Source: Pseudomonadota bacterium
Lineage (GTDB): Bacteria; Pseudomonadota; Gammaproteobacteria; Xanthomonadales; SZUA-38
Direction of reading: 5' to 3'
NCBI GenBank assembly: GCA_039033415.1
Contig: JBCCCR010000026.1
Span: 1-64,000 of the forward strand
DNA length: 64,000 nucleotides
The notes under the pieces are model-generated. The model had not been told where the DNA came from. It did no database searches and worked only from the letters and a program-made list of their open reading frames with translations. Shown here piece by piece: positions 6,531-47,684 of this stretch (within the stretch, counting starts at the first letter, position 1; each line of letters starts with the position of its first letter). A program made the translations under genes and the position numbers.

Positions 6531-6630
6531 CCAGAACCGCGACCGTTATGGCTGCGCCTGCGGCCGCGCCCACAGCCGCCGCAAGCAGCGTTTGCCATGG
6601 TGGTGGCTTTGTTGGGTTGCCATTTGACAT
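6442..6630 (-). CDS. Small single-span membrane protein
   Basis: 62 residues with one Ala/Gly-rich transmembrane helix (about 14-33, TLLAAAVGAAAGAAITVAVL) and a polar C-terminal tail ending VVVEENKRTV. The ATG has a good ribosome binding site (AGGAG about 9 nt upstream). It lies 18 nt after the anti-sigma-like gene and overlaps the long frame of the CHAT gene. No family recognised; the location suggests a membrane partner in the ECF-CHAT system. Confidence 0.65.
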   Translation of the reverse strand: MSNGNPTKPPPWQTLLAAAVGAAAGAAITVAVLDDGDQEPNNSGFQLSPPHIVVVEENKRTV

Positions 6631-6648
6631 GCCTGTTTCTCCTCTTTG

Positions 6649-7371: not shown

Positions 7372-7876
7372 GATTCACTCCTTTTCGACTCAGGCACTCC
7401 CGCAGATTGGCCAGCCCCCGATAGACGCAGTTTTCCGTGCGCTTGTTGGGCCAGTCGAGCAGCTTAGCTGCCTCTGGGACGGTGTGACCCTGGAGATACA
7501 GGACCAGCGCCTGGCGCCGGCTCTCGGCGAGCTGGCTAAGGCAATCCCAAAGCGCCTCGCGCGCGTCATCCGCCGCCAGTGCATCCTCAGGCGAATCCTT
7601 TCGTTCCGAGCCGAACTGCTCGGGTGATACGGCTTGTGTCGTCACGGGACGTCTAGACCTCTTTCTGACCTCGTCGACCACGATGCTGTGGGCGACTCGA
7701 TACAGGTAAGACGCCAGGAGGGCGGAGTTCTCCTCACCGGATGCTCGTTGATGGAGTTTCAGGAGGGCGGTTTGTACGAGGTCCTCTCGTTCGTCCTCCC
7801 CCCAGCGGTAGCACAGTCGATCGACAGCGCGCCGCAAAACGCTCTGAATCCGTTCCAGGTCGTCGCCAGATAACAA
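7358..7876 (-). CDS. ECF-type RNA polymerase sigma factor
   Basis: 172 residues with region 2 (EDLVQTALLKLHQRA, SYLYRVAHSIVVDEVRKRSRR) and region 4 (LAESRRQALVLYLQGHTVPEAAKLLDWPNKRTENCVYRGLANLRECL). Starts with TTG at 7876, preceded by GGGGAGA at a suitable distance. Expected to drive its own operon and other envelope genes; the promoter it reads is not known. An inverted repeat lies about 40 nt upstream. Confidence 0.88.
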   Translation of the reverse strand: MLSGDDLERIQSVLRRAVDRLCYRWGEDEREDLVQTALLKLHQRASGEENSALLASYLYRVAHSIVVDEVRKRSRRPVTTQAVSPEQFGSERKDSPEDALAADDAREALWDCLSQLAESRRQALVLYLQGHTVPEAAKLLDWPNKRTENCVYRGLANLRECLSRKGVNHVLG

Positions 7877-29793: not shown

Positions 29794-32700
29794 ATGAAAA
29801 AAGCACAGTCTTCTTCGCTTGCTCGGACGCTCGTGTCCGGCATGCGGCACCGCCGGCTCGCGCTAGCGATCATGCTGGCGGCGAGCGCGGGGAGCCAGGC
29901 CCAGGTGGTCTTTGATGGTTCACTCGGCGCCCCGGGCGCCCTGAACGGCCCCGCCTATCTCATCGATCAGGCGCGTGGTCGGCTGGAGGGGGGCAACCTT
30001 TTTCACAGCTTTTCCGATTTCAGCATCAGTACCGGCGAGTCGGCAACGTTCTCCTCGACTTCGATGCTCGACAACATTATCGCTCGGGTGACCGGCGGCG
30101 GCCTGTCGCGCATTGACGGGCAGCTTGGCACGGCCGCACCAGGGCCGGTCAGCCTGTGGCTGATCAACCCGGCTGGGGTGGTTTTTGGCGCCAATGCCTC
30201 GCTGGATGTGCAGGGTTCGCTCTATCTCAGCACCGCGGACTACCTCCGGTTTACCGACGGCACTACCTTTTCCGCCGGGGGAGCCGGAGGGCCGTCGACA
30301 CTTTCCGCCGCGCCTGTCGCCAGCTTTGGCTTCATGGGGGCGCCGGCCGGCATCACCATGAACGAAGCGGTGCTCTCGATTCCGGAAGGCAATACGTTTG
30401 CTCTCGTCGGCGGCGACATTTCGATCAACGACGCGAGGCTCCAGGCGCCCGCCGGGCACGCACAGGTGATCTCGGTAGCCTCCCAGGGTGAGGCGCCGCT
30501 GACGGCCGACGGGATTGACGTCAGCGGGTTTTCAGCGCTCGGGGATATCGACATTTTTCGAAACACCTCACGGCTGCCGGTCACGGGCAATCTGGACGTC
30601 AGCGGTGGCTTGTTCACCGGCACGCAGGCGGGCGATATTACGGTTCGAGGCGGTTCGCTGGACAGCGACAGCGGCTTCTTCAACTCCGTATCGTTCAGCG
30701 ACCAGAACTCGGGTCGCACCGTTATCGAGGTGACCGGTGAAGCTAACCTGACCGGCAACACCCAGGTGCTGTCATCCAGCTTCTTCGGTGCCGGCGACGC
30801 CGGCGATGTAATAATCCGCGCCGGTGAGCTGGTGGTGGTCGACAACGCCAGCATCAGCACCGAGTCGCAGGGCGCCGGCGACGCCGGCGACGTCACGCTG
30901 GTGGCAGACAACATATTTATGGACGAGCGGGGCAAGGTGTTTTCCAACACCTTCGACTCGGGTCGAGGCGGCAACATCACGATGACCGCGACCGGCACTA
31001 TTGTGATGGACGGGCAGTCGTCGGTGCGCTCGGTTGCGCTTGGGTCGGGCAACGCTGGCGACATCGTTGTCGACTCCGCCGAGCTGGTCCTGTTTGACGA
31101 AGGCACCATCGACGCCTCAACGTTCGGCGGCAGTTCGGGCAACGGCGGTTCCATCGACATCAACACCGGCGAGCTGGTGGCCCGCGACTTTGGCGTCCTG
31201 ATTACCACGCAGACGGGCGGCAGCGGCGACGGCGGTTCCATTTCGATCGACGCCGATTCTGTGGTGGTGGACAACCGGGCGGAAATCTCGGCGGAGAGCA
31301 GCTCCACCGGCGATGCCGGTGGCATCCGCATCAACACCGACTCGTTTGTGGCCAGCAACGGGGCGCTGATCAACAGCGCGACCAGCGGCGCTGGGCGCGG
31401 TGGATCCGTGGACATCAACGCTGATGATCTCGCTATCAGCGGGAGCGCTACCGAGATTACCGCAGCCACCGCCGGCGCCGGCCGCGGCGGCAACGTCAGC
31501 ATCAACGCGCGCAATGTCGCGATCAGCGATGGCGCCCGCGTGACCGCCCGTGCGGTGTCGACCGGTAACGGCGGCGATGTGGATATCCGAAGCGACGAGC
31601 AGCTGTCGATCGACGGCGCCACGGTCACCGCGTCAGCCAACGGTTCGCGGGGAGGCGGCGTGGCGCTGGCCGCCGGCCAGTCCATGGCGCTGACCAACGC
31701 CAACGTTACGGCTGCGGTGTCGACTGGGCCGCAGGGCGGGACGGTGACCCTGGCGGCACCGCAGATGCTGGTCGACGGCAGTACCGTCAGCGCGACCACC
31801 GGTGGCAACGGCAGCGGCGGCAATGTTGAAATCAGCGGAGACACGCTGCTGGTGAGCAACGGCTCGGAGGTCACATCACGCAGCAGCGGCAACGGATCAG
31901 CCGGTTCGGTGGCGCTGAGCGGCTCCTCGCAGCTCTCCGTCAGCGACAGCGAAATTGCATCGTCTGCCGTGCGCGGTGACGGCGGGGACGTCAACCTGGC
32001 GGCGGATCGGGTCGACATCAACGGCTCGCTGATCTCGGCCTCGGTGGACGGCGGTGCCGGTGACGGCGGGTCGGTCAGCATTGCCGCGGTGGATGCACTG
32101 AGCATCGCCAACAGCAGCATCACGGCTGCCACCGGCGGCACCGGCGACGCGGGCACCGTAACCATCACGGTCGGCGGTGGCGCCCAGCCCAACGAACGCC
32201 GACTGGAAGGCCAGGACACCGATAGCGGTGGCGACCTGACAATCGATCAATCGCTGATCTCGAGCGTTGCTTCGGGTGACGGTGACGCTGGCGGGGTCAG
32301 CCTGACCGCCGGCAGCATTAGCCTGAGCGGCAGTGAGACTTCAGCGACCGCTGGCGGTTTGGGTGACGCGGGCTCCGTGGTGCTCCGGTCGGATACGAGC
32401 ATTACCTCCGCGGACAGCGCGATCACCACCGAGGCCAATCTCGGCCAGGGTGGGGCGATTGAGCTGACGGCCCCGACCATGATCACGCTCGACGATACGC
32501 TCGTTTCAGCGACGGTGCTGGGCGGCACCGGTGACGGCGGCGACCTGACATTTACCACCGGCAAGCTGAGCGTCATGGGCGGTTCGATCGAGGCAGCCAC
32601 CTTCGGCACGGGCACCGGCGGCGTAATCAGCTTTGACACCGACGATCTGATGCTTATGGAAGGCGCGCGTGTAGACAGCAGCGCCGGCGGCGGGGGGCAG

Positions 32701-35052
32701 GGCGGTACGATCAACGTCACCACCCGCAACGACCTGGTGATCGCCGGGACGGGCGCGGGCTTTAGTACCAACGCGGTCGGTTCGGGTCAGGGTGGTGACG
32801 TCATTGTCAGTGCCGCTAATCTGACCGTCAGCGATGGCGCTCAGCTCACTGCAACCGGCACCGGTAGCGCGAACGCCGGCTCCGTATCGGTCGCGGCTGC
32901 CGGGCAGCTCACGGTCAGTAACGCGGTCATCAGTTCGTCCGCCGAGAGTGGGCAGGGCGGATCGGTGACGCTGGGTGCGACCGCAGACACGACACTCACG
33001 AACGCCCAAATCAGTGCGGCAACCGACTCCGGCAACGGAGGTTCGGTCAGCGTGATGAGTGGCGGGGCGCTGGCGATTACCGACAGCAACCTAGCCGCAA
33101 CGTCGAACACCGGCAGCGGTGGCTCCGTGCTGGTGTCGGCCCCTGGTGATGTGACCGTGAGCAATAGCAGCCTCACCGCAACGGTTGGTGGCGCCGGGAC
33201 CGGCGGCGATGTGTCTTTGACTGCAGGCGGCAGTGCCAGCCTGGCTGGCGCCAGTCTGACGGCCCAAGCGCAGGACGGCAGCGGCGGCGCGGTAAGCGTC
33301 GCGGGAAGCGCTCTGGCGATCAACGATAGTTCCATCAGCGCCGCCACCAGCGGGTTGGGTGACGCAGGCAGCGTAGAGCTGTTGAGCGAATCCACGTTGG
33401 CCCTGTCCGCCTCAGAGGTGTCATCACAGGCATTCGCCGGACGTGGCGGCACGGTCTCCCTTATCGCTCCGCAGGCCATCACGCTCGACAACGCGTCGAT
33501 TACTGCGGCAGTTCTAGGTGGCCGGCGAACCGGTGGTGACATCACGGTTGCAACGGGTGATTTCTCCATGACCGGTGGTGCGGTTACTGCGGCAACCGGT
33601 GGGCAAGGCTCGGGGGGAAGTATTCAATTAACCGCCGAACAGATCAGTCTCGGCAATGGTGCATCCGTCACGACACAAGGTACGGCGAGCGGTGACGCGG
33701 GCAGCGTAAGTTTGAATGCAGCGGGTGACCTGATCGCTTCGGACGCCATCGTATCGAGCGCCGCCAACACGGGGAGCGGCGGTTCAGTTTCGCTTGCTGC
33801 CGGCGGCGACATGATGCTATCCGATGCCGACGTTACGGCGACCGTGGCGGCCGGCTCAGGCACCGGCGGCGATGTCGACCTGCAGGCGAATAACGTTACG
33901 ATCAATGGCGGCATCATACAGGCAGCGACCGGCGGCGCGGGTGAAGGTGGTTCCGTCATTGTGCTGGCGTTTGAAAACCTTCTGCTGGCCGGCAACGCAC
34001 GTATCGATGCGACAACATCAGGCAGCGGGCGCGGCGGAAACATTGCCCTCGCCGGTGATGATGTACAGGTGACGGATGGGGCCATCGTTTCGGCTGCCGG
34101 CACCGCGGACGGGGACGCCGGCAGCGTGCTGGTCGACGCCGCGGGCGTGCTGACGGTTACGGACGCCTCTTTGGCCAGCACTGCGAACCGCGGCGCCGGG
34201 GGCAGCGTGACGCTCTCAGCCAGCGGCGACCTGGTGCTAACGAACAGCAGCATCTCGGCTCAGGTGTTTGCCGGCGCAAGCCCGGGCGGCAGCGTGGTGC
34301 TGCGCGGCCAGCGCAGCGAGATCCGGGGAACGCTGATCAGCGCCGCTACCGGTGGTGCAGGCACAGGTGGCAGCGTGTTGGTCGACGTTTCCAGCCTGAC
34401 GCTGGCGGACGGAACGCGGATTGCCGCCAGCAGCACCGGCACCGGCAACGCGGGCAACATTCGCCTGCAGGTGGTCGGTGGTATCGACACCGAAGGCGCG
34501 ACTATCAGCACCCAGGCGGTGTCCGCGGACGGCGGCAATATCGAGATTCAGATGGGTGGCGATTTCTTCCTGCAGGACACGTCGATCACCACGGCGGTAG
34601 GCACCGGTTTAGGCGCCGGCGGCAACATTACCATCGCGCAGCCGGAATTTATGATTCTGAACGGCACCATCATCAGCGCCAACGCGTTTGGCGGACCCGG
34701 CGGCAACATCACGCTGGACCCGGATCAGTTTGTGCCGTCGGCCGACAGCCAGGTGACCGCAAGCTCGGTGCTCTCCAACGACGGGGAAATCCGGATCGTG
34801 GCGCCGGAGACCGACCTCAGTGCCAGCCTGCAGACGCTGCCCGGTGGCTTTGCCCAGGGTGAGGTGCTGTCAACGCGCGAGTGTCAGCGGCGCCCGGGTG
34901 GCCCGCAGAGCCGCTTTGTGATCGAAGACGGTTCCGCCGTACCGCTGGCGCCCCAGGACAACTGGGTGGCCCGCGATTCCACCAACGCCGCACAGGATGA
35001 CAGCCCCACCAGGCTTGCGGCCAACATCACCCTCTGTCGCCAGGATGGCTGA
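29794..35052 (+). CDS. Filamentous-haemagglutinin-type exoprotein (TpsA)
   Basis: 1752 residues. Signal peptide to about residue 36, then a TPS secretion domain ~38-170 (LIDQARGRLEGGNLFHSFSDFSI, DNIIARVTGG, LWLINPAGVVFGANASLDVQGSLYLSTADYLRF, the NPNG-type motif). The rest is a long Gly/Ser/Ala/Thr-rich parallel beta-helix built of repeats of roughly 20 residues with GG+V turns (GDAGDV, GRGGNI, GDGGSV, GSGGSV). Near the C-terminus a single Cys motif, ECQRRPGGPQSRFVIEDGS, resembles the C-terminal block of cyanobacterial homologues. Expected to be exported by the TpsB encoded 9 kb downstream and displayed on or shed from the surface. Adhesin role is inferred from the fold. Confidence 0.9.
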   Translation: MKKAQSSSLARTLVSGMRHRRLALAIMLAASAGSQAQVVFDGSLGAPGALNGPAYLIDQARGRLEGGNLFHSFSDFSISTGESATFSSTSMLDNIIARVTGGGLSRIDGQLGTAAPGPVSLWLINPAGVVFGANASLDVQGSLYLSTADYLRFTDGTTFSAGGAGGPSTLSAAPVASFGFMGAPAGITMNEAVLSIPEGNTFALVGGDISINDARLQAPAGHAQVISVASQGEAPLTADGIDVSGFSALGDIDIFRNTSRLPVTGNLDVSGGLFTGTQAGDITVRGGSLDSDSGFFNSVSFSDQNSGRTVIEVTGEANLTGNTQVLSSSFFGAGDAGDVIIRAGELVVVDNASISTESQGAGDAGDVTLVADNIFMDERGKVFSNTFDSGRGGNITMTATGTIVMDGQSSVRSVALGSGNAGDIVVDSAELVLFDEGTIDASTFGGSSGNGGSIDINTGELVARDFGVLITTQTGGSGDGGSISIDADSVVVDNRAEISAESSSTGDAGGIRINTDSFVASNGALINSATSGAGRGGSVDINADDLAISGSATEITAATAGAGRGGNVSINARNVAISDGARVTARAVSTGNGGDVDIRSDEQLSIDGATVTASANGSRGGGVALAAGQSMALTNANVTAAVSTGPQGGTVTLAAPQMLVDGSTVSATTGGNGSGGNVEISGDTLLVSNGSEVTSRSSGNGSAGSVALSGSSQLSVSDSEIASSAVRGDGGDVNLAADRVDINGSLISASVDGGAGDGGSVSIAAVDALSIANSSITAATGGTGDAGTVTITVGGGAQPNERRLEGQDTDSGGDLTIDQSLISSVASGDGDAGGVSLTAGSISLSGSETSATAGGLGDAGSVVLRSDTSITSADSAITTEANLGQGGAIELTAPTMITLDDTLVSATVLGGTGDGGDLTFTTGKLSVMGGSIEAATFGTGTGGVISFDTDDLMLMEGARVDSSAGGGGQGGTINVTTRNDLVIAGTGAGFSTNAVGSGQGGDVIVSAANLTVSDGAQLTATGTGSANAGSVSVAAAGQLTVSNAVISSSAESGQGGSVTLGATADTTLTNAQISAATDSGNGGSVSVMSGGALAITDSNLAATSNTGSGGSVLVSAPGDVTVSNSSLTATVGGAGTGGDVSLTAGGSASLAGASLTAQAQDGSGGAVSVAGSALAINDSSISAATSGLGDAGSVELLSESTLALSASEVSSQAFAGRGGTVSLIAPQAITLDNASITAAVLGGRRTGGDITVATGDFSMTGGAVTAATGGQGSGGSIQLTAEQISLGNGASVTTQGTASGDAGSVSLNAAGDLIASDAIVSSAANTGSGGSVSLAAGGDMMLSDADVTATVAAGSGTGGDVDLQANNVTINGGIIQAATGGAGEGGSVIVLAFENLLLAGNARIDATTSGSGRGGNIALAGDDVQVTDGAIVSAAGTADGDAGSVLVDAAGVLTVTDASLASTANRGAGGSVTLSASGDLVLTNSSISAQVFAGASPGGSVVLRGQRSEIRGTLISAATGGAGTGGSVLVDVSSLTLADGTRIAASSTGTGNAGNIRLQVVGGIDTEGATISTQAVSADGGNIEIQMGGDFFLQDTSITTAVGTGLGAGGNITIAQPEFMILNGTIISANAFGGPGGNITLDPDQFVPSADSQVTASSVLSNDGEIRIVAPETDLSASLQTLPGGFAQGEVLSTRECQRRPGGPQSRFVIEDGSAVPLAPQDNWVARDSTNAAQDDSPTRLAANITLCRQDG

Positions 35053-35061
35053 GACCCGCCG

Positions 35062-38000
35062 GTGCACCGGGGTGATTCGGCCGGCCTGATGCCGCGCGCC
35101 GGTTCTTGGCCTGGCCGCGCAACGCTCGCGCGCCTGTTGGCGACGGGGGCTTTAGCGCTGCTTAGCGCCACGGGAGCAGCCGCTCAGACGCTCAATCTAA
35201 TCGACCGCACGAGCGCGTGCCTGTCGTCTCCGCTGCTGGGCTTGAGCCACAACGCGGACCCGCCCGGTACCGCGTTTGTCGTGCAAAGCGCTGACGGCTT
35301 TCGGGTACCCGACGGTCCGGCCTGGCGCCTGGACCAGCTGCGCGTTCGCGGCAGCTTTAACGGTTCTGAGCTGTCGCCGGAAGGCGTGGACGTTCGCGTC
35401 TATCAAAACAGCGAAACCCAAAACGCTCCGGACGCCCAGGTTTGCAGCTTCAACGTGGCGCTGTCGCAGCTGGGGCCGCAGGCGAGCAGCGGCAACTTCG
35501 AAATCAACCTGCCCCAGGAGCCGGCCTCCGCCTGCGAGCTGCCGGCGGGCCGCTACTGGCTATCCGTGGTCTTTAACGGTTCGATCGGCGGCAATCCATC
35601 GCAGGGTCGTTATTGGTACTGGGATCAATCGACGGATGCGAGCATGGTGAGCTGGCGGATGCGCGCCTCCGCCGATCTGGACGGCACCGGCATCAGCTGT
35701 CCGGACTGGCTGCCGCGCGATCAGTGCTCGTCGGTGACTCAGGAAAACTCGCTGTGTTTCGGACTGTCGGGTAACACCAACGTGACGCTGCGCGACTCGC
35801 TGGCGGATCAGTTCACCAGCGCCGGCACCAGCTTTCTGATGGACGTCGGCAGCGCCTTCGCCGACCCGGACGGTGACGTGCTCAATTTCCAGGCCAACGG
35901 CTTGCCCGACAGCCTGGCGCTGGACCCGGTGAGCGGACGCATCAGCGGGACCCTGCAGCAGACCGACATCCCGGGCAGCCCCTACACGGTGGACGTTTCG
36001 GTGACTGACCAGGACGGTGAAACCGCCCTGGACACCTTCAGCCTGGTGGTCGCAGACAACGAGGTGTCCGAGTTTCGGTTCCGGCGGCTGTGGCCGGTGC
36101 TGCAGCAGCCCTGGTACTTCGGGTCAGGGGCGCCTGACGTGGCGTTCGCCGGCGAAGCGCTGTTTGTCGCCAACGCCGATTTTTCCCGCATCCAGCGATT
36201 TACGCAGCTGGGACTGCTGATCAGCAATTTGTTTATTGAAGGCCCGGGTGGCGCCGGTACCGTTGGCAAACCGCGCGTGATCGCGGCCAGCCGCAAGGCG
36301 GTTTACACGGTCGGTGATCTGGACCCTCAGATACATATGCTCGATCCGGAAGGCAGGCTGATCCGCAAGTTCGGCGCTTCGGAGCTGGGCGGCCAGGTGC
36401 CACAGTTTCTGGCGGTGACGGAGCGCGGCTGCCGGCGACTCGGCGGGTGTGTGTTCGTGGGTCTGCCCGATCGCGTTTTGAAATTCAGCGAGCAGGGCCA
36501 GTTCCTGACCAGCTTCGGGGCTTGCAGCAGCGCACCCTGCGGCGGCGGCACCGTGCAGACCTTGGGTGGCCTGGGCGCGTCGGAAGACGGCTTTGTTTAT
36601 CTGGCCGACGCCGCTGAGGACCAGCTGATCGTGCTTCGGGCGCAGCCGGGTGATGCGATCAGCACGCCGCCAACGTTGTTGACTGAGGTCGGCAGCAGCG
36701 GCACCGATCCGGGTCAGTTTCAGCAGCCGAGCGACCTGACCCTGGATCGTCAGGGGCGGGTTTATGTCGCCGACGCCAACCGGGTGCAGGTCTTCGACGA
36801 GCTCGGCGCGGTGCTGGATGAATACCAGGCCAACGATCCCGCCAGGACCATCCGCCGGCTGGAGTTTGGGCCTGGTAACCTTGGGTTTGCCTCCAACGAT
36901 CTGGCCCAGGTGGTCCGTTTCCGCCGGGTTGGAGACGTCGAAGCGGGCGCTTCGACATTAAATCTCTCCACCCCTTATTCGAGTGCTGACGACGCCCCCG
37001 GCTTCTTCCGACAGCCGGTTGATCTCGCCGCCGGGCCGAACAGCAACATGTATATCGCTGACGCCGGCAACTTCCGGGTCCAGAAGTTCAGTCCGCAGGG
37101 TGATCTGCAGAACGGATTCGGCAGCGAAGGCACGGGGCCCGGTGAGTTCAGCCGCATGATTGCGCTCGATGCCGGCACCGCTTTCGGACAATTTCGCGTC
37201 AGCGTGCTCGACGACACGGGCACCGAGTACCGGATCCAGCGTTTCGAAAACCAGCTGAATTTTGTCGACCAGATTACGTTGCCCAGCGGAGCGGACTACG
37301 TGGACATGGTCATCGGCAGCGGCGGGAACGCGTTTCTGGTGACAGAACAGGGCAGCGCGCTTAAGGTGGCGCCGGACGGCACCGTGCTCGCAGGCTGGCA
37401 GTCGGAAGGGTCGGGCGGTGAGTTCCGGCAGGTAGCGATCGCACCCAACGGGCTGATCTATTTCACGGTGCAAAGCCCGTCGCAGGACGGCTTTGAGATC
37501 TTCGATCGCTTCGGCAACTTCGTCGCGTTCCTGCCGGCCGCGTTCAACGCGCCGGCGTCCCTGACCATCGCCACCGACGGCAAGATTGTGCTTGGCGAGA
37601 TCCCGGACGTGGCGCCGGACGTGCCCAGGATCAAAATCTTTCGCCAGGATGGCGTTCTTCTGCAGTCGGTCGGGGAGTACGGGTATTTCCCTGGCTCGTT
37701 CGCCGCCCCGTCAGGACTCGACTTTGCCCCCAACGGCCTGCTCTACATCACCGATCGCGCGAACAACAACGTACAGGTGCTTGACCCGGTTCCACCGAGT
37801 CAGGTGACCAAGGTGATTGTGGTGGCCGGCGGTGGACCCTATGTCGGCAACAATCTTTGGGAAACGACCCAGGCGCTCACCAACAGCGCGTACCTTGCTT
37901 TGGCTTATCAGGGGCTCAGCGGCGATGAGATCATGTATCTGTCGTCCAACCAAAACGAGGATCTGGACGGCAACGGCGTGTCGGACGTCGACGCACCCGC

Positions 38001-41000
38001 CACGCCCGGCGCGCTCAACAACGCGATTACCGGCTGGGGCGCGGACGCTGATCAGCTGGTGGTTTATTTGGCCGATCACGGTTCGGAGGACGTCTTTCGG
38101 CTGAACCCTCGCAACACGCTGAGCGCAAGCCAGCTCGCGTCAGCGCTGGATACCGTCCAGGCCGGTCCGGACGGCGTGAGCCAGGCCGTGGTGATCTACG
38201 AGGCCTGCCGGGCCGGCAGCTTTGTCGACGATCTCGCGAACAGCTCCGTCAACCGGATCGTGCTGGCCAGCACCGGCGAAGCGCAGAGCGCCAAATTTGT
38301 CTCTGACGGTATCCTCAGCTTCTCGAACCAGTTCTGGACGCAGATCTTCTCGGGTTCGGACCTCGCTGATGCATACAGCACAGCGTCTCAGGTGATGACG
38401 GCATCGTTTACCGACCAGCAGCCTGAAGCCGACGCCGATGGAGACGGGAGCAGCAATGAGCCGATCGAAGATCTGGCTGCGCTAGCCGGCGTTTTTGTCG
38501 GGGCGGGCACCGACTTTGACCCGGGTTCGCCGATCATCACCAGCGTTACGGCACCGCAGACGCTGGCCAGCGGGAACACGGCGCAGATCAGCGCGTTCGG
38601 CGTCAGCGATGCGGACGGCGTGAGTCGGGTTTATGCGGAGATCATTCCTCCTGACTTCGAAGACGTGGACATCGACCAGCCGGTCCGAGAGTTTCCCGGC
38701 TTTGAGCTGCAGCCGGACAGCCGCGGCAGCGTGGACTACACGCTGATCTATGACGAGTTCTCCATCGAAGGCGTCTATGTGATCAACGTCTACGCCCAGG
38801 ACCGGTTCGGCAACGTTTCCTCGCCATCTACCACAACGGTTACCGTCGGCAATCCGGAGCTGCGCAAAGCGCTGCTGATTGTCGGCGGCGAGACCACTGA
38901 TCCGCGCTGGTCGGCTTACAGTGCCAACGGATCGTTTGCGTTTACGGCGTTGAGCGCGCAGGGCTACAGCGATCTTGGCCTCGAGACGGTGCGGTATCTG
39001 TCCAACGGCGGTGGCGAGGGCGTCGACGGCGCCGCCGGCAGCGCCAACGTGGCTGACGGGTTCGCCTGGGCCGGGACGCAGGCGCAGGACGTCGTGGTGT
39101 ATCTCGTGGGCGGTGTACGCAGCGGCGCGCTGCGGCTGGCGAGCGGCGATCGGCTCACCGTCAGCGAGCTCGCCGACTATCTGGATAACCTGGAGGCCGC
39201 CATCAGCGGCCGGCTTGTGGTGCTCTATGACGGCAACCGATCGGGTGCGTTTCTTCCCCGTCTCGCCTCGGCCAGCGACGATCGTCGACTCTTGATCACG
39301 AGCGCCGCCGCGTCGCAGGACGCCAGTTTCCTGCTGGACGGGACCTTGAGCTTTTCGCAGTTCTTCTGGAATCGGGTGCTGAATGGCGACTCGGTGCTGG
39401 AGGCGTTTGAAGCGGCGCGCGACGCCATCAGCTTTTCCGCCGGCGGGCAGACGCCTCAGCTCGACGATAACAGCAACGGTGAGGGCAACGACGCTGAGGA
39501 CGGGCTGCTGGCGAGCGCGTACTCGATCGGCACCGGGATCCTGCAGGATGCCAACGGACCAACGGTTGGCGAGACGGGGCCGGACGTGGTGCTGTCCGGG
39601 GGCGTGACGACCGCAGACATCACCGTCAATGATGTGTTGAGCACCGGATCGGTGGATCAAGTTTTTGGTGTCGTCACAACGCCACCGCCGCAGCAGCTTA
39701 CCGACAGCTTCGCGTTTGCACCAACCAACGTCGATGCTGACGGCAACGGCGAATACACCGGCACCTACGGCGGCTTCGGACCTCTGCCGGGCGGCGGCTT
39801 CGCCGCGGGCGACTACAGCATTTCTGTCTATGCACGCGACGCCCGCGGCAACGTGTCGTTCCAGGAGAACCTGCGGGTGGAACAAACCGCGGGGCCGGAC
39901 GGCTATGAGCCCGACGCCACGCGCGCTGCGGCCTCGGTGATTTTTGTGGACGATCTCGACGCGCAGCCGCACACGTTTCATGTCGATAGCGACGCCGACG
40001 TGATGAGTTTCACCGCGGTGAACTCGCCGGCCGGGCCCGGCAATCCCGCGCAGACTTATCAGATTGAGGTCTCCGAGATCGACGATTTTTCCGGCGCTGC
40101 GTTCAATCTTCGGATCGAACTGTTCGGCCCCACCACGCCGCTGGGAACGCCGCTCGCGACCACCAGCGGGGGGTTGAGCGGAAGCCTGTCACTGACCTGG
40201 CCACCGGCTAACGCCGCTTATGACGAAGGGGAAGGGGAGTATTTTGTCCGAGTCAGCGCGCTGTCATCGACACAGCGCGGAAAGTACGAGGTTCGGGTCT
40301 TCCGACCCGACGTGCTGCTGACGGGCCTGGTCCGCGGTTCAGTGGTGGACGCGCAGACCGGGCTGCCCGTGGTTGGCGCGCTGATCAGCACCGGGGGCAC
40401 GGTGGCTGCCGCCAGCAATCCGCTCGGGGAGTTTCAGCTAGTGGAAAACCCGGGCAGCTACGATCTGACCGTGATTCCGCCGGCCGGCTATGACGGCCTG
40501 GTGGAAGCGGCGGTGCCAGTGGTGGAAAGCCTGACGACCTGGCGCCTGCTGCAGCTAGACCCCAGCGGGGTGGCGCCGACCGTGTTTACCGGAACGGCTG
40601 ACAATATTGGTCAAACGAGCGTCACCCTCGATGGCCAGGTCTCACCCAACGGCGAGACAACCAGCGTGCTGTTTTCGGTTCAGCCAGCGGCCGGCGGGAT
40701 TGTTCAGCCCGGTGATCTGGCGGCGGCAGCGCCGCTGTCGGACGTTACCGCCCAGGTGTCGGGTCTGACGTGTGAAACCGGGTATCAATTTCGAGTGAGC
40801 GCTACCAACGCCAGCGGCACCAGCGACGGCAACCTGGTCGCGTTTACCACCGCGGACTGCGTCACGCCGCCCACCGTCGGGACGCCGCAGGCGCAGTCGA
40901 TCACCGATAGCAGCGCCACCCTGACCGTGCAGGTTGATCCGATGGGTAGCGATACCACCACGGCGTTCCGCTGGCGGCCGGTCGGCGGTGTGTTCAACGT

Positions 41001-42441
41001 CTACACCGATTCATCCCCGGTCCTGACCGGCAACGGCTTACAAACGGCGACGCTGGACGTCGCCGATCTGACCTGCGGTACGAACTATGACCTGCACGCC
41101 CGGGCGAGCAACAGCGGCGGCATGGTCGAAAGCGCCTTCGCAAGCTTTGCTACGGCAGCCTGTCCGCAGCCGCCGCCGGTGGTGACCACGCTCGCCGCCC
41201 AGAGCGTCACCGAAACCAGCGCTGACCTGCGGGCGGCTGTCGACCCCAACGGTGCGAGTACGCTGGTGGAATATGTTTTTGCGGCGGTCGGCGAAGCGGA
41301 CGGTCCCTGGCTGACCGCAACCACGATCACCGAGTCGACCACGGTGGTCGCGCCGGTCAGTGGCCTGGACTGTGGCCGAAGCTATCGGTATCGGTTCCGG
41401 GCCAGCAACGCCGGTGGTCAAACCGAAGGGGCTGAGCTCAGTTTTATGACCACCGAGTGTCCCGCTGACTTCCCCGAGACCACCAGCGTTGCGGCAAACG
41501 CGGTGAGTCAGACGTCCGCCACGCTCAACGCAACCGTCAACCCGAACGGGTCCGAGACCCAGGTGAGCTTCGACTTTGGCCGGGGCGGCGTGTTCACCGA
41601 TTCGGCGGCGCTGGACGTGACGCTCGACGGCAGCGACACCCAGCCGGTGAGCGTGGTGCTGACAGGCCTGGTCTGTAACAGCGAGTACCAGTTCCGGGTC
41701 CAGGCAACCAACGCGGCGGGTACCGCCTTCGGTGCGGCGCTGACGTTCACGACCAACCCCTGTGATCGGATCCTCCTGGTGGACGACGACGACAACGTGC
41801 CCGACGTGTTGCCCACCTACAGCGGCGCGCTCGACACGTTGGGTTTTGCTTTCGACGTGTGGAACACCAACGGGGCGGACGCGGAGCCCGGCCAGGCTGA
41901 GCTGGAGAGCTATTCCACCGTCATCTGGTTTACCGGCAATAACGCCGAAGTTGGCACCGGCCCTTCTTCCACCAGTGAGGAGGCGCTGGGAGCGTACCTG
42001 AACGGCGGTGGATGCCTGGCGGTCTCGGCTCAAGATTATTTCACTGTGCGCGCTAACGGCAGCGTTCCGACTCCGCTGATGGCCGACTACCTGGGCGTCA
42101 GCGGCGGCACCAGCGACGCGGGGCCCGCTGAGGTGGCCGGCGTCTCTGTTGAGTTTGCAGGACTGCCAGCGAGCGGTAGCTACGTGCTGGACTACGCGAG
42201 TGCTGCTCTGCAGGACAGGGCTGACGAGCTGGCCGAAGACAGCACCGCCGCAGCGTCTTTCAGCGGTGAGGGCCGGACGGCAGGTCTACAAAAACTGACT
42301 CCGGTTTACCGAACGCTCTACCTGGGTTTCCCGCTGGCCGCGGTTCCGGGTGCCACCGAGCAGGCCGCCGTACTCAGCGCTATGCTGGACTTTTGTCGCG
42401 GGGCCGATCAGATTTATGCCGATGGGTTTGAAGATGAATAG
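35062..42441 (+). CDS. Giant secreted protein: NHL propeller, tandem C13 peptidase domains, FN3-like repeats
   Basis: 2459 residues from GTG at 35062; ATG at 35089 is also possible. Signal peptide to ~41. Then an Ig/cadherin-like domain (SAFADPDGDVLNFQANGLP ~275-345), an NHL-type propeller ~350-910 (repeated VYVADANRVQVFD, MYIADAGNFRVQKFS, LYITDRANNNVQVLD), a C13 legumain-like domain ~915-1155 with His in YLADHGSED (~1006) and Cys in IYEACRAGSF (~1048), an Ig-like domain, a second C13-like domain ~1268-1500 lacking both residues, a prepeptidase-like region, a carboxypeptidase-regulatory-like domain ~1755-1830, four FN3-like repeats ~1838-2233 each with a Cys pair, and a glutamine-amidotransferase-like domain (ILLVDDDDNVPDVLPTY). 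Ends IYADGFEDE. Lies 9 nt after tpsA; cell-surface or secreted protease role inferred. Confidence 0.82.
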   Translation: MHRGDSAGLMPRAGSWPGRATLARLLATGALALLSATGAAAQTLNLIDRTSACLSSPLLGLSHNADPPGTAFVVQSADGFRVPDGPAWRLDQLRVRGSFNGSELSPEGVDVRVYQNSETQNAPDAQVCSFNVALSQLGPQASSGNFEINLPQEPASACELPAGRYWLSVVFNGSIGGNPSQGRYWYWDQSTDASMVSWRMRASADLDGTGISCPDWLPRDQCSSVTQENSLCFGLSGNTNVTLRDSLADQFTSAGTSFLMDVGSAFADPDGDVLNFQANGLPDSLALDPVSGRISGTLQQTDIPGSPYTVDVSVTDQDGETALDTFSLVVADNEVSEFRFRRLWPVLQQPWYFGSGAPDVAFAGEALFVANADFSRIQRFTQLGLLISNLFIEGPGGAGTVGKPRVIAASRKAVYTVGDLDPQIHMLDPEGRLIRKFGASELGGQVPQFLAVTERGCRRLGGCVFVGLPDRVLKFSEQGQFLTSFGACSSAPCGGGTVQTLGGLGASEDGFVYLADAAEDQLIVLRAQPGDAISTPPTLLTEVGSSGTDPGQFQQPSDLTLDRQGRVYVADANRVQVFDELGAVLDEYQANDPARTIRRLEFGPGNLGFASNDLAQVVRFRRVGDVEAGASTLNLSTPYSSADDAPGFFRQPVDLAAGPNSNMYIADAGNFRVQKFSPQGDLQNGFGSEGTGPGEFSRMIALDAGTAFGQFRVSVLDDTGTEYRIQRFENQLNFVDQITLPSGADYVDMVIGSGGNAFLVTEQGSALKVAPDGTVLAGWQSEGSGGEFRQVAIAPNGLIYFTVQSPSQDGFEIFDRFGNFVAFLPAAFNAPASLTIATDGKIVLGEIPDVAPDVPRIKIFRQDGVLLQSVGEYGYFPGSFAAPSGLDFAPNGLLYITDRANNNVQVLDPVPPSQVTKVIVVAGGGPYVGNNLWETTQALTNSAYLALAYQGLSGDEIMYLSSNQNEDLDGNGVSDVDAPATPGALNNAITGWGADADQLVVYLADHGSEDVFRLNPRNTLSASQLASALDTVQAGPDGVSQAVVIYEACRAGSFVDDLANSSVNRIVLASTGEAQSAKFVSDGILSFSNQFWTQIFSGSDLADAYSTASQVMTASFTDQQPEADADGDGSSNEPIEDLAALAGVFVGAGTDFDPGSPIITSVTAPQTLASGNTAQISAFGVSDADGVSRVYAEIIPPDFEDVDIDQPVREFPGFELQPDSRGSVDYTLIYDEFSIEGVYVINVYAQDRFGNVSSPSTTTVTVGNPELRKALLIVGGETTDPRWSAYSANGSFAFTALSAQGYSDLGLETVRYLSNGGGEGVDGAAGSANVADGFAWAGTQAQDVVVYLVGGVRSGALRLASGDRLTVSELADYLDNLEAAISGRLVVLYDGNRSGAFLPRLASASDDRRLLITSAAASQDASFLLDGTLSFSQFFWNRVLNGDSVLEAFEAARDAISFSAGGQTPQLDDNSNGEGNDAEDGLLASAYSIGTGILQDANGPTVGETGPDVVLSGGVTTADITVNDVLSTGSVDQVFGVVTTPPPQQLTDSFAFAPTNVDADGNGEYTGTYGGFGPLPGGGFAAGDYSISVYARDARGNVSFQENLRVEQTAGPDGYEPDATRAAASVIFVDDLDAQPHTFHVDSDADVMSFTAVNSPAGPGNPAQTYQIEVSEIDDFSGAAFNLRIELFGPTTPLGTPLATTSGGLSGSLSLTWPPANAAYDEGEGEYFVRVSALSSTQRGKYEVRVFRPDVLLTGLVRGSVVDAQTGLPVVGALISTGGTVAAASNPLGEFQLVENPGSYDLTVIPPAGYDGLVEAAVPVVESLTTWRLLQLDPSGVAPTVFTGTADNIGQTSVTLDGQVSPNGETTSVLFSVQPAAGGIVQPGDLAAAAPLSDVTAQVSGLTCETGYQFRVSATNASGTSDGNLVAFTTADCVTPPTVGTPQAQSITDSSATLTVQVDPMGSDTTTAFRWRPVGGVFNVYTDSSPVLTGNGLQTATLDVADLTCGTNYDLHARASNSGGMVESAFASFATAACPQPPPVVTTLAAQSVTETSADLRAAVDPNGASTLVEYVFAAVGEADGPWLTATTITESTTVVAPVSGLDCGRSYRYRFRASNAGGQTEGAELSFMTTECPADFPETTSVAANAVSQTSATLNATVNPNGSETQVSFDFGRGGVFTDSAALDVTLDGSDTQPVSVVLTGLVCNSEYQFRVQATNAAGTAFGAALTFTTNPCDRILLVDDDDNVPDVLPTYSGALDTLGFAFDVWNTNGADAEPGQAELESYSTVIWFTGNNAEVGTGPSSTSEEALGAYLNGGGCLAVSAQDYFTVRANGSVPTPLMADYLGVSGGTSDAGPAEVAGVSVEFAGLPASGSYVLDYASAALQDRADELAEDSTAAASFSGEGRTAGLQKLTPVYRTLYLGFPLAAVPGATEQAAVLSAMLDFCRGADQIYADGFEDE

Positions 42442-44161
42442 CTTGCGCCTGAAAGGTCTACTGCTCCTGGCGGTGGTGCTCTGCGGGAGCGCCGGCGCGG
42501 CGACGCGACACGCGCTGCTCATCGGCGTCGGCAGCTACGATGACCCGGTGTCGGCGCTGCTGGCGCCGCGGTTTGACGTAACGGCCGTCGAAAATACCCT
42601 GCTGGAAAAGTGGGCCTTTGAGCCCACCAACGTGACCCGCCTGCTCGACGGTGACGCGACCCGCGAGGGGATCCTGCGCGCCCTGCGCAATCTTCAGCTC
42701 ACCACCGAACCCGGCGACTTTGTGTTTGTGTACTACGCGGGCCACGGCACCAGCGCGCTGGACTTAAGCGTCGCCGCGGCGCTGCCCCATACCTCGGGCG
42801 CGCTGATCCCCGCCGATTTCAATCGGCACGGCACGCCGGAGGAGATCGCCGAATCGCTGATCATCGGGCGGCGCGATATTCGCCCGATCTTGGCGCAGCT
42901 CGATGCCGCGGGCCGCGAAGTCTTTTTTGTGGTGGACGCCTGCTATTCTGGCAACACGGTCCGTGGCGCCGGCCAGGAGCACACCGGGCGTCCGCCCCTG
43001 CCGGTGCGCGCCGCCGACATTCTGCCGCCGGATGTGCAGGCCACGCCCGCGCCGCCCAGCGAAGAGGCATACCCTTACTCGCAGGTGTTCTATCTTTCGG
43101 CCGCCGGTGAACACGAGCCCGCCGGCGAGATCACCGACAAGCTGCTGCGCTGGTATCCCACCTTCGACGGGCAGCCTCATGGGGCGTTTACTGACGCTCT
43201 GCTGCGCGCCATGCAGGGCCTCACCCCCGGCACGGATGCGAACGGTGACGGCCGCGTGTCTTACCTTGAGCTGTATGAATCCGTGCGCGGCTTTATGGAA
43301 AAACGTGGCTATCCGCAGAGCCCGCAGTTTTTGCCGACGATCGATGAGGCGCAGGTGGACCCCAGCACCGCCATCATTTTTGACCTGCCCGGCGAGCCCC
43401 AGTTTGTGCAGCCCGCACCCGAACCGGATCAGCCGCTGCGGCTCAAATGGATCAACCCCAGTGAAGCGGATCGCCGTCTCGTCAAGAGTCTGAGCGGTCT
43501 GGAGATCACCGACGGTGATGCCGATCTCATTTTGCTGCGTGAGTCCGACCGTAGCGTCCTGCTCAACGCGTCGGGTGATCTCATTTCTGAGGTGTTTGAC
43601 CCGGCCAGCGCTGACCCGTGGCACCGGATTCGCGGGGAGCTGTTCGTGCGCGGCTTGGCCTCACGGGGAGTAGCCAAAGGGGCGAATCAGAACCTGGTGC
43701 TGCAGTACACAGATCCCGCGATGGGGGTGACCGCCGTACGCGGCGACGACCTGGGTTTTGTCATGCGCCCGTCGCTGCCGCTTCATTTGCTGGTGTTCGA
43801 CCTGGAGTCAAACGGCGGCATCAGCCTGCTGTATCCCATCAACAGACAGGAGAAGGCGCGGCAGCCGGCCGGGCGCCTGACCAAGATCGAAGATATAGTA
43901 GTAGTACCACCGTTTGGCATGGACAAGATTGTGGCGGTGGGGTTAGGGCGCCCGCTGGAGGCGGCGGGGCAAGCTTCAACCGAAGGTCTTGGGTCGTTTC
44001 TCGGCCAGACGCTGGATCCCGGCAGCGATGCGCTCGCCCGGTTTCAGCAGCTCCTGGCCGGCCGCGACGACCTGAGGGCCGTCGCGCAACTGTCGCTGAT
44101 CACCACCGACAGCGTGAACCGGGCGGCCCGCGGCGGAGCCGACAGGGGGGATAAGGAATGA
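42434..44161 (+). CDS. Caspase-family (C14) protein with EF-hand-like loop
   Basis: 575 residues from ATG at 42434, overlapping the previous stop by 8 nt. Signal peptide (LKGLLLLAVVLCGSAGAA). Caspase-like p20 region: RHALLIGVGSYDD, His in VYYAGHGTSA (~104), Cys in VDACYSGNTVR (~170). At ~267 a canonical 12-residue calcium loop, DANGDGRVSYLE. The C-terminal ~230 residues (RLKWINPSEADRRLVKSL..., HLLVFDLESNGGISLLYPI) look like the DUF4384-type domain often following bacterial caspases. Clan CD peptidases cleave after basic or acidic residues; the substrate is unknown, but the signal peptide and neighbours place it in the envelope. Confidence 0.9.
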   Translation: MNSLRLKGLLLLAVVLCGSAGAATRHALLIGVGSYDDPVSALLAPRFDVTAVENTLLEKWAFEPTNVTRLLDGDATREGILRALRNLQLTTEPGDFVFVYYAGHGTSALDLSVAAALPHTSGALIPADFNRHGTPEEIAESLIIGRRDIRPILAQLDAAGREVFFVVDACYSGNTVRGAGQEHTGRPPLPVRAADILPPDVQATPAPPSEEAYPYSQVFYLSAAGEHEPAGEITDKLLRWYPTFDGQPHGAFTDALLRAMQGLTPGTDANGDGRVSYLELYESVRGFMEKRGYPQSPQFLPTIDEAQVDPSTAIIFDLPGEPQFVQPAPEPDQPLRLKWINPSEADRRLVKSLSGLEITDGDADLILLRESDRSVLLNASGDLISEVFDPASADPWHRIRGELFVRGLASRGVAKGANQNLVLQYTDPAMGVTAVRGDDLGFVMRPSLPLHLLVFDLESNGGISLLYPINRQEKARQPAGRLTKIEDIVVVPPFGMDKIVAVGLGRPLEAAGQASTEGLGSFLGQTLDPGSDALARFQQLLAGRDDLRAVAQLSLITTDSVNRAARGGADRGDKE

Positions 44162-45873
44162 AACAGACAACAATCGGTCGTTGGGTTTTGCTGGCAGCGC
44201 TGCCGGGGCTGTTGCTGCCGCTGCCCTCAGCGCTCGCCCAAAGTGACGACGTGGAGCGCGGCCTTCAGCGTCGTCCCGGGCTGGAGAACGAGCGCCCCGA
44301 GCTGCCGGAATTCGACGAGCGCGAGGACGTGCCGCTGGATCTGCCGGCAATCGAATCGCTGGCGATCCCCAAAGACACGCTCTCGGGCGCCCCGCTGGTT
44401 TATCTCCAGAAGGTGCAGCTCACGGACGCCACGGAGTTGACCGCCACCGACGTGGGCGAGGTGAGCGCCGCCTACCTGGACCGAAACGTCAGCGCCGAGG
44501 AGCTGCAGCAGCTGAGGGCGGAGCTGACTCAGCTCTATGTCGACCGGGGCTACATCACGTCCGGCGTGCTGCTGCCCGATCAGCGGATCAGTGACGGCAC
44601 GGTCCGCTATCAGGCGGTTGAGGGTCGGCTCGAGGCGCTGGAGGTCTCCACCAGCGGACGACTCCGCCCCTCTTACGTGGAGTCACGGCTTCAGGGTGGG
44701 GGCGACGAGCCGTTGAACGTGGTGGATCTGCGTGAGCAGCTCCGCATCCTGCACGCTGATCCGTTGATCGAACGGGTCGATAGCCGGCTGCTGCCGACGC
44801 AGCAGCGGGGTTCAGCCAGGCTGGTGGTCGACGTCGAGGAGGCCCGCCCGTACAGCCTGTTTTTGACGGCCCACAACAATCGGGCCCCGAGCGTCGGCAG
44901 CGAATGGGTGGAGCTCGGTTTTGTCCATCGCAACCTGCTCGGTTTTGGCGATCGCGCAGAGCTGCGGTACGGGACCGGTGACGGCCTGGATGACTACCAG
45001 CTGGGCTACGCGGTGCCGGTCACCCGAAGCGGGATCACGGTGGGCGTCAGCTACGCGCAGAGCGACGCACAAATTGTCGAAGAACCGTTCAGCCGCATCG
45101 ATATCCGCAGCGACAGCGAGGAGTGGGCCCTGGACGTGGTTGTCCCCTGGAAACGCTTCGGTGCCCGTCGTTTGACCTTTATCGCCGGTGTAGATCATCG
45201 GGAAAGCAATACAAGCCTGCTGGGCATTCCGTTTTCCTTTTCTCCGGGCGTGAACAACGGTCGGGCTGAGGTTACCGCCGCGCGGCTGACCGCGGACTGG
45301 ACCGACCGACGCGCCAACCAGGTTTTTGCGCTGCGGGGACGAATTAGCGTAGGGCTCGATGCCCTCGACTCGACGATCAACGACGGCAATCTGCCCGACA
45401 GCGAGTTTGTGACCTTCCTCGGTCAGGCCCAGTGGTCACGCCGTTTCGGTGAAAACGACAACCAGCTGATTTTGCGCGGCGATTTGCAGAAAACCTTCGA
45501 CGGCCTGCTGCCGCTGGAGAAGCTGTCGATCGGCGGGCGTACGAGCGTGCGCGGCTATCGTCAGAATCTGATGGTGCGCGACAACGGCTGGGTTGCCTCA
45601 GCGGAGTTTCGCATGCCGGCGTTCCGTGACAGCAACGGCCGCAGCAAATTCCAGTGGTCGGTCTTTGCTGACATCGGGCGCGGGTGGAACGAGGATTTCG
45701 ATACGCCGGAGCCTAAGTCGATCGCCAGCGTCGGGGCCGGATTCTTGTGGGATCCACTGCCCGGCCTGCACACCGAGCTCTACCTCGCCCACGGCTTTGA
45801 AGACATCGAGTTCAGCGACAGCGATCCGCAGGACGACGGGATCCACCTCCTGGTTCGTTACGACATCTTCTAA
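44158..45873 (+). CDS. TpsB outer-membrane transporter (ShlB/FhaC family)
   Basis: 571 residues; exports TpsA exoproteins across the outer membrane. Signal peptide (LLAALPGLLLPLPSALA), two POTRA-type domains at about 75-225 (VYLQKVQLTDATELTATDV..., YVDRGYITSGVLLPDQRISDGTVRYQAVEGRLEAL; RLRPSYVESRLQ...), then the 16-strand barrel with RRLTFIAGVDHR and the conserved L6 motif SVRGYR at ~463. Ends LLVRYDIF, a typical terminal aromatic strand. ATGA overlap with the caspase gene. Cognate substrate is presumably the TpsA encoded two genes upstream; the 9-kb separation is unusual. Confidence 0.92.
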   Translation: MKQTTIGRWVLLAALPGLLLPLPSALAQSDDVERGLQRRPGLENERPELPEFDEREDVPLDLPAIESLAIPKDTLSGAPLVYLQKVQLTDATELTATDVGEVSAAYLDRNVSAEELQQLRAELTQLYVDRGYITSGVLLPDQRISDGTVRYQAVEGRLEALEVSTSGRLRPSYVESRLQGGGDEPLNVVDLREQLRILHADPLIERVDSRLLPTQQRGSARLVVDVEEARPYSLFLTAHNNRAPSVGSEWVELGFVHRNLLGFGDRAELRYGTGDGLDDYQLGYAVPVTRSGITVGVSYAQSDAQIVEEPFSRIDIRSDSEEWALDVVVPWKRFGARRLTFIAGVDHRESNTSLLGIPFSFSPGVNNGRAEVTAARLTADWTDRRANQVFALRGRISVGLDALDSTINDGNLPDSEFVTFLGQAQWSRRFGENDNQLILRGDLQKTFDGLLPLEKLSIGGRTSVRGYRQNLMVRDNGWVASAEFRMPAFRDSNGRSKFQWSVFADIGRGWNEDFDTPEPKSIASVGAGFLWDPLPGLHTELYLAHGFEDIEFSDSDPQDDGIHLLVRYDIF

Positions 45874-47684
45874 TGAGCTGGCTTGGGCGCAGCCTGCTGG
45901 TGCTGGCCGTCAGCGCGTTTGGGGCGCTGGTGTCGGTGACCCCCTTTGTGAAGCGCCTCGAGCTTCAGGTTTTTGATATCCAGCAGCGATTCGTGCGCCA
46001 GTACGTGCCGCAGCCTGGCGCCAGCCCCGAGGTGGCGCTGATCGGCATTGACGAGGGCACGGTACAGGCCATCGACGCCCCCATGGCCCTCTGGCACCAG
46101 CAGCTGGCGCAGGTCATTACCGCCATGGCGTCGGCCAAGGCCGCGGTCCTGGGCTTTGACCTTGTCCTGCCGGAACGCAGTTTTGACGAGTTTCTTGGCC
46201 GGGCCAACGATCAGCCGCTGATGCAGGCCATCCTCGGCGCCCGCCGCGCCGGCGTGCCGGTGGTGTTTGGCCGAACGCTGAGCGCCAGCGGCCGGCTATA
46301 TGACGTCCTGCCGAAATTTAAGGCGGTTCTGGGCAAAGACGGTTTCGGCATGGTACTGCAGGTGCAGGAGATGGACGCGGTGGTGCGGCGCTACTACGAC
46401 GACCGCTACGAAGATGCGCTTGAGCTGCGCACGCTCGTCGGGCAGATGGCCCGCCAGACCGACGTCACGGTGCGCAACGGCTGGATCGACTACGCGGTCG
46501 GCGACCCGATCGGCTACGTCCCGATGTCTCAGGTGATCCAGTGGCAGGCAGCGGGAGACGTCGACGCTCTGCAACAGGCGTTTGAAGGCAAAGCGGTGTT
46601 TGTCGGCGGCGTCCTGCCGTTTGAAGATCGCCACACCCAGCCACTGGTCCTGGCGGACTGGGAAGCCAACCGTTACGCCCCCGGTGTGCTCATCCACATG
46701 CAGGCCTACCGGTCGCTGGCAAGCGACCGGATTCTCAGCGGGGTGGGCGGTGTTTGGTACGCCAGTTCGCTTCTCGTGATGGCCCTGCTGGTGCTGCTAC
46801 GCGACCGGCCGCTGACGGCGCTGATTGTGCTCGGGGTTGCCGTGCTTGCGGCGGCGGCGGGGTCGACGGTTGCCTATCTGGAGGGCTGGCGCCTTAGCGC
46901 GGTGCCGATGGTGGTCACCGCTCTTGCAGCCTGGCTGGCAGGGGCGGTCCGAGACGCCTGGTCAAACCTGCGGGACAAGCAGCGGATGCGTTCGGCGTTC
47001 GGTGGTTACGTCAGTCCACAGATTCTGAATGAAATCCTGGAGGGCAACCTGTCGCCGGAGTTAGGCGGCGAGAGCCGGGAAATTTGCCTGTTATTCTGCG
47101 ATTTGATTGGCTTTACGACCCTCAGCGAAACCAATGACGCGGAATATGTTCTAACCCTGTTGAATCGGTACTTTGATCGCGTTACACCCGCCATTCACAC
47201 CTTTGATGGTACGCTCGATAAGTACATGGGAGATGGGATCATGGCGTTCTTCGGCGCGCCAAAACCCCACAAAAACGCGGCCCAGGCGGGCTTCGATGCG
47301 GCGCGGATGATGCTGAACGAGCTGGACAAGTTCAACGTCGAGCTCGCCGCAGAGGGGATTCCGCCGATCCAGGCCGGAATCGGGCTGGGTCTGGGAAAGG
47401 CGATTGTCGGCCACGTCGGCGCCCAGTCTCGCTTCGAATATTCGGCGATCGGCGACGCGGTGAACGTGTCGGCGCGTATCGAGGGCCTGACGCGGCACCT
47501 GAACTGCCGCATTGCGCTGAGCGAGAACGTCGCCAATCAGCTAAGGGTCGAGGACCAGCAGGAGCTGGAGCCTTTCGGGCCACAGCAGATCAAAGGCCAC
47601 TCGGCGATCAAGGTTTTCGGCTGGGGAGAGCTCCGGCCAGGGAAGGAGGCAGCTGAGGCTGTCAGGAGCGAGGTAGCATCATGA
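45873..47684 (+). CDS. CHASE2-domain adenylate cyclase
   Basis: 603 residues. One N-terminal membrane helix, a CHASE2 extracytoplasmic sensor ~30-285 (LIGIDEGTVQAIDAPMALWHQQLAQVI, VLGFDLVLPERSFDEFL), three membrane helices ~290-365, a short linker (RSAFGGYVSPQILNEIL), and a class III cyclase domain ~400-590. Metal-binding Asp residues in LFCDLIGFT (~410) and YMGDGIMAFFG (~453); the Lys of LDKYMGDG and Asp of AIGDAVNVSARIEG are the pair that selects ATP. So an active adenylate cyclase is predicted. Start overlaps the TpsB stop by one base. Provides signalling output of the island. Confidence 0.92.
   Translation: MSWLGRSLLVLAVSAFGALVSVTPFVKRLELQVFDIQQRFVRQYVPQPGASPEVALIGIDEGTVQAIDAPMALWHQQLAQVITAMASAKAAVLGFDLVLPERSFDEFLGRANDQPLMQAILGARRAGVPVVFGRTLSASGRLYDVLPKFKAVLGKDGFGMVLQVQEMDAVVRRYYDDRYEDALELRTLVGQMARQTDVTVRNGWIDYAVGDPIGYVPMSQVIQWQAAGDVDALQQAFEGKAVFVGGVLPFEDRHTQPLVLADWEANRYAPGVLIHMQAYRSLASDRILSGVGGVWYASSLLVMALLVLLRDRPLTALIVLGVAVLAAAAGSTVAYLEGWRLSAVPMVVTALAAWLAGAVRDAWSNLRDKQRMRSAFGGYVSPQILNEILEGNLSPELGGESREICLLFCDLIGFTTLSETNDAEYVLTLLNRYFDRVTPAIHTFDGTLDKYMGDGIMAFFGAPKPHKNAAQAGFDAARMMLNELDKFNVELAAEGIPPIQAGIGLGLGKAIVGHVGAQSRFEYSAIGDAVNVSARIEGLTRHLNCRIALSENVANQLRVEDQQELEPFGPQQIKGHSAIKVFGWGELRPGKEAAEAVRSEVAS

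Follow-up and report, generated by a model that had tools for sequence, protein, structure and literature searches.

A putatively live and a catalytically dead C13 peptidase domain form a conserved tandem in a giant, probably exported bacterial protein

In the window analyzed here (the whole 64,000-nucleotide stretch of contig JBCCCR010000026.1), one giant gene encodes two tandem units, each consisting of a C13 peptidase domain followed by an Ig-like domain. The first peptidase domain retains the His/Cys dyad expected of a cysteine peptidase, and the second has lost both residues. The same live-plus-dead pairing recurs in dozens of related genes from two phyla, which marks the dead copy as a long-established, functional part and not an accident. 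We favor, at a probability of roughly 0.5 and by analogy with other peptidases, the reading that the dead domain is an intramolecular partner of the live one. The conservation across the family and the repeated origin of such pairs are the parts that a specialist would not expect: one genome holds eleven copies, an intermediate step with the His gone and the Cys kept occurs in another phylum, and independent duplications appear to have reached the same outcome. This makes the family a direct testing ground for the question of why peptidase duplications repeatedly persist with one copy working and the other erased.

The giant protein (2459 amino acids; 35062–42441, forward strand, as are all window features below) is numbered from a GTG at 35062, which is residue 1. 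An alternative ATG start lies at residue 10 and is followed by a signal-peptide-like stretch; judged by eye, the protein probably exits the cytoplasm via this signal peptide. Its Pfam matches comprise a He_PIG Ig domain, NHL repeats, Peptidase_C13, and FN3 domains. The NHL β-propeller region (about residues 341–910, 36082–37791; Pfam NHL, E=1.4e-15) precedes the C13 pair, as it does in most paralogues, and part of it (36310–36828) weakly matches the NCBIfam ScyF model, with 122 bits against a cut-off of 350. Next come C13 domain 1 (residues 913–1158, 37798–38535), Ig-like domain 1 (about residues 1156–1263, 38527–38850), C13 domain 2 (residues 1264–1510, 38851–39591), and Ig-like domain 2 (about residues 1506–1625, 39577–39936). 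The first Ig-like domain is a β-sandwich in the predicted model and is homologous to the second, which was assigned from the model and this homology.

Domain 1 matches Pfam Peptidase_C13 (PF01650) with E=2.6e-10 and 40.7 bits, above the cut-off of 22.8, and domain 2 falls below it, with E=0.0029 and 17.6 bits. Domain 1 contains exactly one His (His1006, 38077–38079) and one Cys (Cys1049, 38206–38208), which constitute the expected dyad; the catalytic His-Gly and Ala-Cys follow hydrophobic strands (YLADHG and IYEAC) and are invariant. In the alignment of tandem genes, the corresponding positions of domain 2 are occupied by Gly1351 (39112–39114) and Asn1392 (39235–39237), and a scan of the whole domain (residues 1263–1510) found no His and no Cys. 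The sequence-only reading had identified YLADHGSED and IYEACRAGSF in the first copy and YLVGGVRSG and LYDGNRSGAF in the second, and had concluded that both catalytic residues of the latter were lost. These motifs lie where it placed them, at residues 1002–1010, 1045–1054, 1347–1355, and 1388–1397, respectively, and the loss holds. An alternative His/Cys active site inside domain 2 is ruled out because the domain has neither residue. Additionally, domain 1 carries a calcium-type loop, DLDGNGVSDVD (residues 967–977, 37960–37992), which is absent from domain 2 and, from its motif, may bind metal.

The two units are homologous over their full length. In BLASTP, unit 1 aligns with unit 2 at 102 bits (E=4e-29, 29% identity over 356 columns), and the score lies 34 SD above those of shuffled sequences. 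Profile–profile comparison relates C13 domain 1 to C13 domain 2 with a probability of 100% (E=7e-55) and Ig 1 to Ig 2 with 99.5% (E=6e-23), whereas the crossed C13/Ig controls reached only 0.2–0.3%. Therefore, the C13 and Ig domains were duplicated together as one unit. Both this duplication and the alignment of the second domain with the first along its whole length had been proposed from the sequence.

Structure prediction points to one fold for both copies. In an AlphaFold2 model of the four domains, built on a shallow alignment of 4 rows drawn only from the window and related loci (mean pLDDT 62, pTM 0.39), strands and helices follow in the same order in the two C13 domains. The domain 2 region of this model, for which no domain 1 rows entered the alignment, best matched legumain 4nol (Z 16.4, rmsd 2.7 over 183 residues), and the top structural match listed for domain 1 was GPI transamidase (Z 15.3). 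A model of domain 2 alone, built on 9 rows from the same sources with domain 1 rows among them, reached a pLDDT of 83.7 and a pTM of 0.87. It matched legumains at Z 20–22.6 (best 6azt, Z 22.6, rmsd 2.5 over 213 residues), metacaspase-4 at Z 21.5, and the caspase-8/c-FLIP entry 3h11 (chain B) at Z 18.6; its mixed alignment biases it toward the shared fold, a bias of which the four-domain model is free. With the 732-residue model, Foldseek ranked many unrelated multi-domain enzymes first, and the domain 2-only model resolved the ranking. The two outcomes that the sequence-only reading had named against itself, a different His/Cys site in domain 2 or two unrelated folds, are thus contradicted by the scan and by the predicted legumain-like structure. 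Collectively, the lost catalytic residues and the conserved predicted fold under selection characterize domain 2 as a predicted pseudopeptidase.

The tandem is widely distributed. In its own genome (6.4 Mb; G000), a Lysobacterales-type MAG to judge by its 95%-identical relative JANQOZ01, PF01650 matches 13 places, and the complete tandem is present in 11 genes, one of them the window gene (contigs C1, C2, C3, C5, C9, C15, C17, C26, C29, C30, and C35), most of them with an NHL propeller in front, which represents a large expansion. The other ten are 37–45% identical to the window gene. The tandem also occurs in a congener, a family member, a more distant Gammaproteobacterium (G276), and Desulfonema magnum and other genomes of the same phylum, Desulfobacterota. 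Genome G003 has two tandem C13 genes next to each other within a single cluster (L104, 4725–16391). No relatives were found in the phage, plasmid, and viral-contig collections searched. A recent local duplication is ruled out by the same tandem in another phylum. The earlier interpretation therefore stands for the unit duplication and the loss of both residues, which sequence, profiles, and fold support, but not for its setting as a local event in a single gene: the arrangement is ancient, spans 27 compared tandem genes in two phyla, and arose more than once.

In the domain-by-domain comparison of these 27 genes, the split gene of G374 was counted, and a gene with reversed order (L113) and one in G091 (L123), whose apparent second domain of 24 bits was discarded as spurious, were left out. 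Domain 1 keeps His and Cys in 27/27. Domain 2 lacks the His in 27/27 and the Cys in 23/27, and no tandem with two intact dyads was found among the genes compared. The four second copies with Cys and without His (L112, L121, L125, and G374) all belong to Desulfobacterota, which suggests that the His was lost before the Cys. The residues now at these positions vary widely from paralogue to paralogue (P, V, A, E, T, R, G, or D for His; D, E, S, or N for Cys). Columns conserved in both copies belong to the scaffold (SFSxxFW, R1065/R1409, S1070/S1414, and G1098/G1442), and those conserved in domain 1 only include the His, the Cys, their neighbors, and the calcium-type loop DxDxNGxxDDxD, a pattern present in 20/28 first domains and 0/28 second domains. 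Moreover, the window gene was compared with its counterpart in G001, which is 95% identical, by simple NG86 counts (one pair, small numbers). The dN/dS values were 0.030 (domain 2), 0.041 (domain 1), and 0.167 (FN3 region); in this pair, domain 2 is under purifying selection no weaker than that acting on domain 1.

A tree of C13 domains built without the catalytic columns places most dead second domains in one clade (support 98.8 in a pruned quick tree), and by this tree one duplication explains most tandem genes. A single origin of all dead second copies is ruled out by the AU test: forcing the G276 dead domains into the main dead clade was rejected (p-AU 4e-6). The dead domains of G276 and their own live domains are sisters (T1/T2, support 100/98), as are T1/T2 of Desulfonema L113 (support 100/94), and therefore live-plus-dead pairs formed repeatedly. 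On this phylogenetic evidence, a second, independent duplication (G276) also ended as one live and one dead copy, and apparently so did a third (L113), although gene conversion rather than new duplication could be behind both sister relations. In L113 (Desulfonema magnum, 5406–7805), the order is reversed: the first copy has His/Ser, with Cys changed to Ser, and the second an intact His/Cys. Desulfonema magnum also has single-domain C13 genes with damaged dyads (L114 564–3158, L115 7142–9640, and L120 13263–15134; H/A, N/P, and N/D, respectively), and the dead genes of L114 and L120 are close to intact paralogues in Desulfonema.

Several known systems share features with this protein. Legumain (asparaginyl endopeptidase; MEROPS C13, PF01650) resembles both domains in fold, and its HG and [D/E]AC motifs resemble those of domain 1; in contrast, the present protein is bacterial and tandem, with Ig domains following and the second copy dead, and the sequence match covers only the catalytic core. 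The GPI-anchor transamidase PIG-K/GPI8, the top listed match of domain 1, shares the C13 fold, but PIG-K is the one catalytic subunit of a membrane complex. Dead clan CD homologues are known to partner live peptidases, for example in caspase-8/c-FLIP (PMC6426788). The caspase-8:c-FLIP(L) pair likewise joins a live peptidase and a dead homologue of the same fold, and its 3h11 chain B matches domain 2, but it belongs to family C14, consists of two separate chains, and is intracellular. Bacterial C14 pseudo-forms, the pseudo-orthocaspases, also exist and have lost the clan CD His/Cys dyad, but they are C14 rather than C13 (PMC6426788); the searched text of that paper makes no mention of tandem forms. 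Gingipain RgpB (C25), another bacterial clan CD peptidase, joins a caspase-like catalytic subdomain to a noncatalytic subdomain on its N-terminal side and to an Ig-like domain; it differs in having the noncatalytic part first and one continuous 10-stranded sheet (PMC4357240). No C25 profile appeared among the Pfam matches up to E=1. Clan CD pseudopeptidases are already known among caspase relatives; of a conserved live-plus-dead C13 pair, no description was found in the open-licence literature searched.

We propose that an ancestral C13-peptidase–Ig unit was duplicated in tandem, that the first copy stayed a putative His/Cys cysteine peptidase, and that the second lost the His, probably before the Cys, together with its active-site and calcium-type loops, while selection has maintained it, with its predicted fold, as a pseudopeptidase. 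We infer that, on the exported protein, the dead and live domains act together in cis, the dead one most likely as an intramolecular partner that would stabilize or regulate domain 1 or present substrate to it, as inactive caspase homologues do for active ones. The NHL propeller and the Ig/FN3 modules could provide further binding surfaces, and the natural targets may be proteins outside the cell or in its envelope, with the cluster's own TpsA exoprotein as one possibility. This partner role is favored by analogy and by the near-constant fusion of the dead copy to a live one. Two considerations count against it: legumain is described as a monomer that needs no partner (PMC4357240), and a dimer-like role is therefore not implied by the C13 family; in addition, the low-confidence predicted four-domain model (pTM 0.39, mean pLDDT 62) established no interface between domains 1 and 2. 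More tentatively, repeated duplications in extracellular bacterial C13 peptidases might have converged on a live-plus-dead design in which the live copy depends on the dead one as its obligatory allosteric partner, a bacterial cis counterpart of caspase-8/c-FLIP in a different peptidase family. The term "binding or inhibitory pseudo-peptidase" proposed by the sequence-only reading is plausible for domain 2, and the data fit inhibition, activation, substrate binding, and scaffolding alike.

The partner role is preferred to two other functional readings. Domain 2 could be a stand-alone module that binds a substrate, matrix, or cell-surface ligand through the old groove or another surface and makes no contact with domain 1. 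The rest of the protein is built from binding modules (He_PIG, NHL, Ig, and FN3), and the varied residues at the old His/Cys positions would suit diversified ligands; however, binding alone leaves unexplained both the near-constant live C13 on the same chain and the fixed C13-Ig-C13-Ig order, and we regard this reading as possible but doubtful. It is unlikely that domain 2 is a structural spacer that holds modules apart and is kept since its deletion would misfold the protein: the fold is indeed kept with the active-site loops gone, but domain 2 is under stronger selection than the FN3 spacers of the protein (dN/dS 0.030 vs 0.167), and a 240-residue peptidase fold is an unusual spacer. Catalysis through different residues, such as an Asp at the Cys position, is very improbable; Asp is the commonest residue there (58% of second domains), but no residue reaches a consensus at the partner position (25% at best), the surrounding loop is not conserved, and domain 2 of the window has Asn. 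Least probable of all is a functionless, decaying relic, to which the lost catalytic residues could point: domain 2 is kept in 27/27 tandem genes of two phyla under strong purifying selection, and the dN/dS rules out its decay.

The gene lies in a cluster (29794–47684) that encodes, in order, a TpsA-type secreted exoprotein (29794–35052; Pfam TPS, E=3e-35), the tandem C13 protein, a caspase-like (C14) protein with a weak DUF4384 match (42350–44161; Pfam C14, E=1.4e-15), a TpsB-type outer-membrane transporter (POTRA_2, ShlB; 44158–45873; Pfam ShlB, E=8e-29), and a CHASE2-adenylate/guanylate cyclase (45873–47684; Pfam CHASE2, E=6e-22; Guanylate_cyc, E=4e-18). Pfam detected no TPS domain in the 2459-residue protein; this domain belongs to its upstream neighbor. 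Two clan CD peptidase genes next to a two-partner secretion pair are unusual. The cluster order is identical in G001; in G003, the cluster is present as well, with TpsA and the giant gene separated by two inserted genes, one of them another tandem C13 gene, and in Desulfonema, a TpsA-type protein is encoded two genes downstream of a tandem C13 gene. Several PADLOC Pycsar cyclase models match the cyclase domain (best E=2.4e-27), and a PADLOC caspase model matches the caspase-like protein; these hits probably reflect general family resemblance only. Finally, the window protein (42415–42438) and the tandem C13 paralogues L092–L101 end in F-x-x-[G/S/N]-F-E (for example, YADGFEDE, FASGFE, and FADGFE). 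A count of the codon pattern of this motif plus a stop gave 17 occurrences in the own genome and none in a reversed control, and this end looks like a C-terminal sorting tag of the source lineage.
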